A stretch of DNA of 64,000 nucleotides from positions 558,001 through 622,000 of the forward strand of contig NZ_CP032570.1 of the NCBI RefSeq assembly GCF_003626915.1. Reading direction: 5' to 3'. Below are positions 50,240-50,428 of this stretch, piece after piece (position 1 is the stretch's first letter; each line of letters starts with the position of its first letter). This stretch comes from Tsuneonella amylolytica (lineage in GTDB: Bacteria; Pseudomonadota; Alphaproteobacteria; Sphingomonadales; Sphingomonadaceae). Made by a program: the position numbers and the translations under genes. The notes below the pieces were generated by a model that did not search any database, was not told the DNA's origin, and saw only the letters and a list, made by a program, of their open reading frames with translations.

Positions 50240-50254
50240 TCCCTCACGTCCCCC

Positions 50255-50428
50255 GATTCACCTTATCCACAGGGTGAGTCCTCGCGGACTCCGCGTCAAG
50301 AACGAAGTCTGACCGAAAGTGGTTAATCCCGAGTTGCTTCAGACGGAACAGAAGGTGTCCGTCACAAGATGTTGAGTCCGAACGGAATTGCGGAACTCGA
50401 CATTGTGGGTGTGTTGCAACGAGGACTC
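50255..50428 (-). promoter_or_regulatory. ccrM leader with a cluster of GANTC sites
   Basis: GANTC occurs at 50255 (GATTC), 50276 (GAGTC), 50287 (GACTC), 50374 (GAGTC) and 50424 (GACTC, overlapping the rnhB end): five sites in 174 bases. The expected rate in random DNA is about one per 256. In Caulobacter, GANTC sites in the ccrM leader tie expression to methylation state; the same could hold here. Confidence 0.6.
50263..50271 (+). promoter_or_regulatory. DnaA box in the ccrM leader
   Basis: TTATCCACA, a perfect consensus DnaA box, 24 bases from the ccrM ATG and between two GANTC sites. A lone box; no further boxes or AT-rich unwinding region nearby. Confidence 0.55.

Follow-up and report, generated by a model that had tools for sequence, protein, structure and literature searches.

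In Caulobacter, CtrA activates ccrM (PMC8959179), and methylation control of ccrM itself has been called 'most probable' (Gonzalez et al. 2014, PMC3973325). GANTC sites inside Caulobacter promoters go with GcrA-dependent activation (PMC3667746, PMC4287350); mutation of the GANTC cripples the mipZ and podJ promoters (PMC3667746), and a GANTC between the −35 and −10 elements goes with activation at 40–60 min (PMC4287350). Brilli et al. (2010) predicted DnaA motifs before ccrM in some alphaproteobacteria, mainly where CtrA sites were missing and with no conservation by taxon (PMC2877005). Links of DnaA and of GANTC to ccrM have been predicted before. The NrdR boxes of ribonucleotide reductase promoters are paired 16-bp palindromes, separated by a 15-bp gap and overlapping the polymerase site (PMC12176259).

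We compared the ccrM leader of Tsuneonella amylolytica with each of these systems. As in Caulobacter, the gene has its own GANTC sites near the promoter, but its predicted start lies under a DnaA box, and only a putative, partial CtrA-type half site was seen. A GANTC inside the promoter is also shared with the GcrA/CcrM-controlled sigma-70 promoters mipZ, podJ and ctrA P1; the ccrM promoter differs from them in its fixed, class-wide pattern (TTGAC-N14-GANTC-A-N3-T), and the role of GcrA at the ccrM leader is putative. In contrast to the motifs of Brilli et al. (2010), a single perfect DnaA box at the predicted ccrM start is a fixed feature of one family. Finally, the leader contains a motif that is common to nrdA of the same genomes and resembles the NrdR boxes, although its target is a DNA methyltransferase gene and its boxes are fused to GANTC, spaced by 31–33 bp as a pair and less palindromic than the classic ones.

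Anatomy of the ccrM leader

The window, a 64,000-nucleotide stretch of the T. amylolytica genome, carries rnhB, ccrM and folP in this order on the minus strand. The gene rnhB also lies 5′ of ccrM in nearly all class-level loci and in most near-relative loci; among named organisms, species of Tsuneonella (Erythrobacteraceae) are the closest relatives. The top NCBIfam match of the ccrM product is CcrM (1.6e-180), with a score under that model's cut-off. The anatomy of the control region and its conservation were seen directly; its features are as follows, in window coordinates.

49100–50239, minus strand: ccrM, GANTC adenine methyltransferase, 379 aa (Pfam N6_N4_Mtase, 1.2e-64, and RAMA, 2.5e-19)
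50255–50259, minus strand: GANTC (sense-strand GAATC) that separates the DnaA box from the ribosome site in the predicted 5′ leader (in some, not all, relatives)
50263–50271, minus strand: perfect DnaA box, read as TGTGGATAA in the sense of ccrM, at predicted −7 to +2 (conservation and rarity)
50271–50276, minus strand: predicted −10 element CACCCT (CANNNT; A at −11 and T at −7 conserved)
50276–50280, minus strand: GANTC (GACTC) that runs into the −10 element, predicted −16 to −12 (position fixed across the class)
50287–50291, minus strand: GANTC (GAGTC) in the core-promoter spacer (site count and leader comparison)
50294–50299, minus strand: predicted −35 element TTGACG (in relatives, TTGAC precedes a GANTC by exactly 19 bp)
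50319–50326, minus strand: TTAACCAC, a degenerate form of TTAACCAT (candidate CtrA-type half site)
50362–50378, minus strand: downstream NrdR-like box GACTCAACATCTTGTGA, with a fused GANTC, and a possible second promoter, −10 CAACAT (12/16 to the NrdR consensus; motif also at nrdA in relatives)
50394–50410, minus strand: upstream inverted NrdR-like box (ACCCACAATGTCGAGTT; its GANTC decayed to GAGTT in T. amylolytica)
50424–50428, minus strand: fifth GANTC, over the rnhB stop codon (many relatives have a GANTC near the same place)
50427–51062, minus strand: rnhB, ribonuclease HII, upstream of ccrM (NCBIfam, 3.5e-64)

The initial annotation had counted five GANTC sites before ccrM, two of them flanking a perfect DnaA box, and both observations hold: the sites begin at 50255, 50276, 50287, 50374 and 50424, with a total span of 174 bp, and the box (TTATCCACA on the forward strand) stands between the first two. 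Four of the five sites lie strictly inside the rnhB–ccrM gap, and the one at 50424 overlaps the rnhB stop codon. Within the window, GANTC is depleted about fourfold (80 sites versus 315 expected from shuffles); its density elsewhere in the genome is about 1.1–1.2 per kb, and five sites within 174 bp have a probability of about 3e-6 per placement. A scan for clusters and patterns covered 1.66 of 2.79 Mb (60% of the genome), where the tightest five-site clusters are the oriC-like stretch next to hemE, the ccrM leader and the dnaA leader, while the next-tightest include the stretch before nrdA.

Conservation among the relatives' leaders gives strong support to two further claims of that annotation, that the target of CcrM is abundant in the ccrM leader and that this leader includes the DnaA box. 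Its account of enrichment and DnaA box stands, but it had overlooked the placement of GANTC in the core promoter, the position of the DnaA box over the predicted start and the NrdR-like pair. A potential hairpin was rejected: its GAGTCC/GGACTC arms pair in T. amylolytica, but many relatives have GACTC/GACTC, and the position is upstream of the predicted start. The arrangement GANTC-N6-GANTC occurs at five places in the genome; the one at 1752499 is the nrdA promoter, and the one at 612187 (window 54187), within a long open frame, was set aside.

Predicted core promoter and DnaA box

We compared the leaders of 161 unique ccrM loci from the genus, family and order and of 67 from the rest of the class. 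The core promoter follows the pattern TTGAC-N14-GANTC-A-N3-T: a GANTC stands exactly 19 bp after TTGAC in 99 of the 103 near-relative leaders, in 41/58 family- and order-level leaders and in 34/67 class-level leaders, compared to about 0.06–0.15 pairings expected per distance in shuffled leaders. When TTGACG is taken as the −35 element with a 17-bp spacer, the last C of the GANTC falls at −12 and the site overlaps the −10 element, CANNNT. The A at −11 is invariant in all leaders with the 19-bp spacing, the T at −7 is present in all 27 aligned class-level cases, and the spacer usually holds a second GANTC. On this numbering, both the core promoter and a start near 50264 are predicted.

A GANTC within or over the −35 to −10 interval is one mark of a GcrA/CcrM-type sigma-70 promoter, and the ccrM promoter has it. 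The genome encodes CcrM as well as GcrA (genome 2145099–2145749, two segments above cut-off). Across the scanned 1.66 Mb, TTG-N16-GANTCANNNT is found only at ccrM, at nrdA and at one other place, which lies at genome 2462751 on the minus strand. Judged by these comparisons, the ccrM leader is a strongly conserved control region and not a chance arrangement. The class-wide rule that GANTC ends at −12 provides a concrete pattern for finding further methylation-sensitive promoters.

The DnaA box is conserved in a narrower group. The 9-mer TGTGGATAA is present in 97/103 near-relative leaders, with an identical orientation to ccrM in all 97; the remaining six carry a degraded form. Perfect copies of TTATCCACA number three in the 2.79-Mb genome, one of them at ccrM and none in the oriC-like stretch; another is at genome 2397967, and the copy at 299846 was discarded as lying inside a long open frame. 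In 26 near-relative leaders, one base is inserted between the GANTC and the DnaA box; the box is still perfect, and these leaders lose the T at −7 of the predicted −10 element, a point against the promoter layout proposed below. The box thus shifts relative to the −10 element without decay, an argument for selection on the box itself.

At this leader position, the box is absent from the family-, order- and class-level leaders compared outside the Erythrobacteraceae clade. On a CcrM tree (134 rows, with few columns and many open forks), its distribution needs seven changes, for which the best reading is a single acquisition close to the root of the Erythrobacteraceae, with about six losses. The T. 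amylolytica DnaA carries GGRDHSTV near its C-terminus, which is close to the GGRDHTTV of E. coli; a motif of this type is the canonical box-reading motif of DnaA. A protein bound from −7 to +2 should block the polymerase, from which we infer repression, and the position of the box over the predicted start suggests that repression of ccrM is the likelier effect of DnaA.

NrdR-like boxes at ccrM and nrdA

Further upstream, the box GANTCNNNATNN(N)NGTG is found in 84/103 near relatives, with a second GANTC 20 bp further up in 75 of these 84; around this GANTC, the sequence looks like an inverted copy of the box motif, with a mean match of 13.6 of 17. Scored against an NrdR consensus, the best box reaches at least 12/16 in 79/103 near leaders (0.65 expected), and distant leaders with such a box number 6/46 (0.2 expected), with a match of up to 15/16 in a distant family (ACACAATATCTTGTGT). 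An NrdR-like ACGCAGGATATGGTGT in order-level leaders proved to be rnhB coding sequence and was rejected, and the recount was limited to the part after the rnhB stop. Between the boxes of a pair, high scores in near relatives are reached at two spacings, 31 and 33 bp, which are weak elsewhere, and there is no clean peak at the canonical 31 bp; at nrdA the spacing is about 34 bp.

A search for GANTCANNATCTNGTGG in seven relatives returned ten exact copies, of which seven are at nrdA and the other three at ccrM, and in the remaining four relatives the ccrM copy is one mismatch off. The confinement of exact matches to nrdA and ccrM is the strongest evidence for a regulator common to both genes, and this regulator is likely NrdR. 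In T. amylolytica, nrdA is the only large ribonucleotide reductase subunit found, and it has NrdR-like boxes and a GANTC over its −10 element. A scan with the GANTCANNATCTNGTGG-type motif missed it because of the longer centre of the nrdA box. The nrdA promoter (genome 1752498–1752523) is built like the ccrM core, with TTGCGC, two GANTC sites 6 bp apart and a −10 element, CACTAT, that lies in the NrdR-like palindrome CACTATGGATAGTG.

No earlier report of a link between NrdR and ccrM was found in the open-access literature; if confirmed, this link would be the novel part of the scheme. Of the near relatives, 43/103 carry TTAACCAT in the leader, a possible CtrA-type site.

Proposed control of ccrM and its alternatives

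We propose that ccrM is probably governed by a composite control region, which joins a core promoter set by methylation, a shut-off by DnaA and NrdR-like boxes tied to the dNTP pool. Sigma-70 RNA polymerase would use the core promoter, in which a GANTC extends into the −10 element. Methylation of this GANTC by CcrM, most likely read by GcrA, would set the promoter's activity, and passage of the replication fork would alter it. In the Erythrobacteraceae, DnaA bound to the high-affinity box over the start would shut the promoter, so that ccrM would stay silent around initiation, when the level of active DnaA is high. The upstream NrdR-like boxes, fused to GANTC and common to nrdA, would tie ccrM output to the dNTP pool via the repressor NrdR. 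As an outcome, CcrM would be made during replication, neither at its start nor in its absence.

The arrangement suggests a coupling of methylation to DNA replication through the ccrM leader, which would be a junction of three replication signals: the GANTC sites of the promoter, the DnaA box over the start and an operator in common with nrdA. We more tentatively suggest that ccrM could belong with nrdA to an NrdR regulon with GANTC-fused operators, a proposal that falls just short of being probable, in which the capacity for methylation would be set jointly by dNTP level, DnaA at the start and promoter methylation.

Several alternatives bear on the DnaA box. It is unlikely that TGTGGATAA is a part of the promoter, the first transcribed bases or another protein's site: its constant strand relative to ccrM, a conserved string (−17 to +3) that exceeds the 9-mer and the likeness of its GATAAC to a −10 element would fit such a role, but the 9-mer is an exact consensus DnaA box, it withstands the 1-bp shift, and leaders from beyond the Erythrobacteraceae have this core promoter but lack the 9-mer. 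As the real −10 element, GATAAC was rejected, since it would need a 26-bp spacer from TTGACG and is absent outside one family. DnaA regulation in Caulobacter is mostly activation. Several genes there are under DnaA regulation (gcrA, ftsZ and podJ; PMC4287350), which counts against repression, and the rarity of perfect boxes could make a single one a notable sink. Nevertheless, we consider it quite improbable that a true DnaA site at ccrM activates the gene or merely titrates DnaA, as protein bound over the predicted −7 to +2 region should obstruct the polymerase and a single box is a poor sink.

For the upstream inverted repeat, binding not by NrdR but by another factor, whether GcrA on its own, CtrA or some unknown protein common to nrdA and ccrM, is a possibility of some weight, though the less expected one. 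It would fit with the GANTC in both boxes at the same 20-bp spacing (75/84 leaders) and with the unclean pair spacing, and the start motif of nrdR had no match in the 1.66 of 2.79 Mb (60% of the genome) that was searched. Against such a factor, the match to the NrdR consensus is far above shuffles, distant families included, and the element is common to nrdA, a classic NrdR target. That the whole leader is a chance cluster of short motifs without regulatory meaning is scarcely conceivable: a site of only five bases can cluster by chance, but no result backs this reading, and it is contradicted by class-wide conservation with fixed spacing and by rarity in the genome.

In sampled segments, GC skew turns from mostly negative to mostly positive at about 1.5 Mb, and the switch adjoins hemE and a GANTC-rich, oriC-like stretch. 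Provided that the terminus is opposite the origin, ccrM (0.608 Mb) would lie at about 0.64 of the origin-to-terminus distance, and fork passage would render its promoter hemimethylated during the later stages of replication. The likely oriC beside hemE (genome 1505235–1505450) contains the tightest GANTC clusters in the scanned 1.66 Mb, together with DnaA-box-like sites, none of them perfect and the best with one mismatch. The dnaA leader (genome 2016793–2017200) has a GANTC cluster comparable to that of the ccrM leader.
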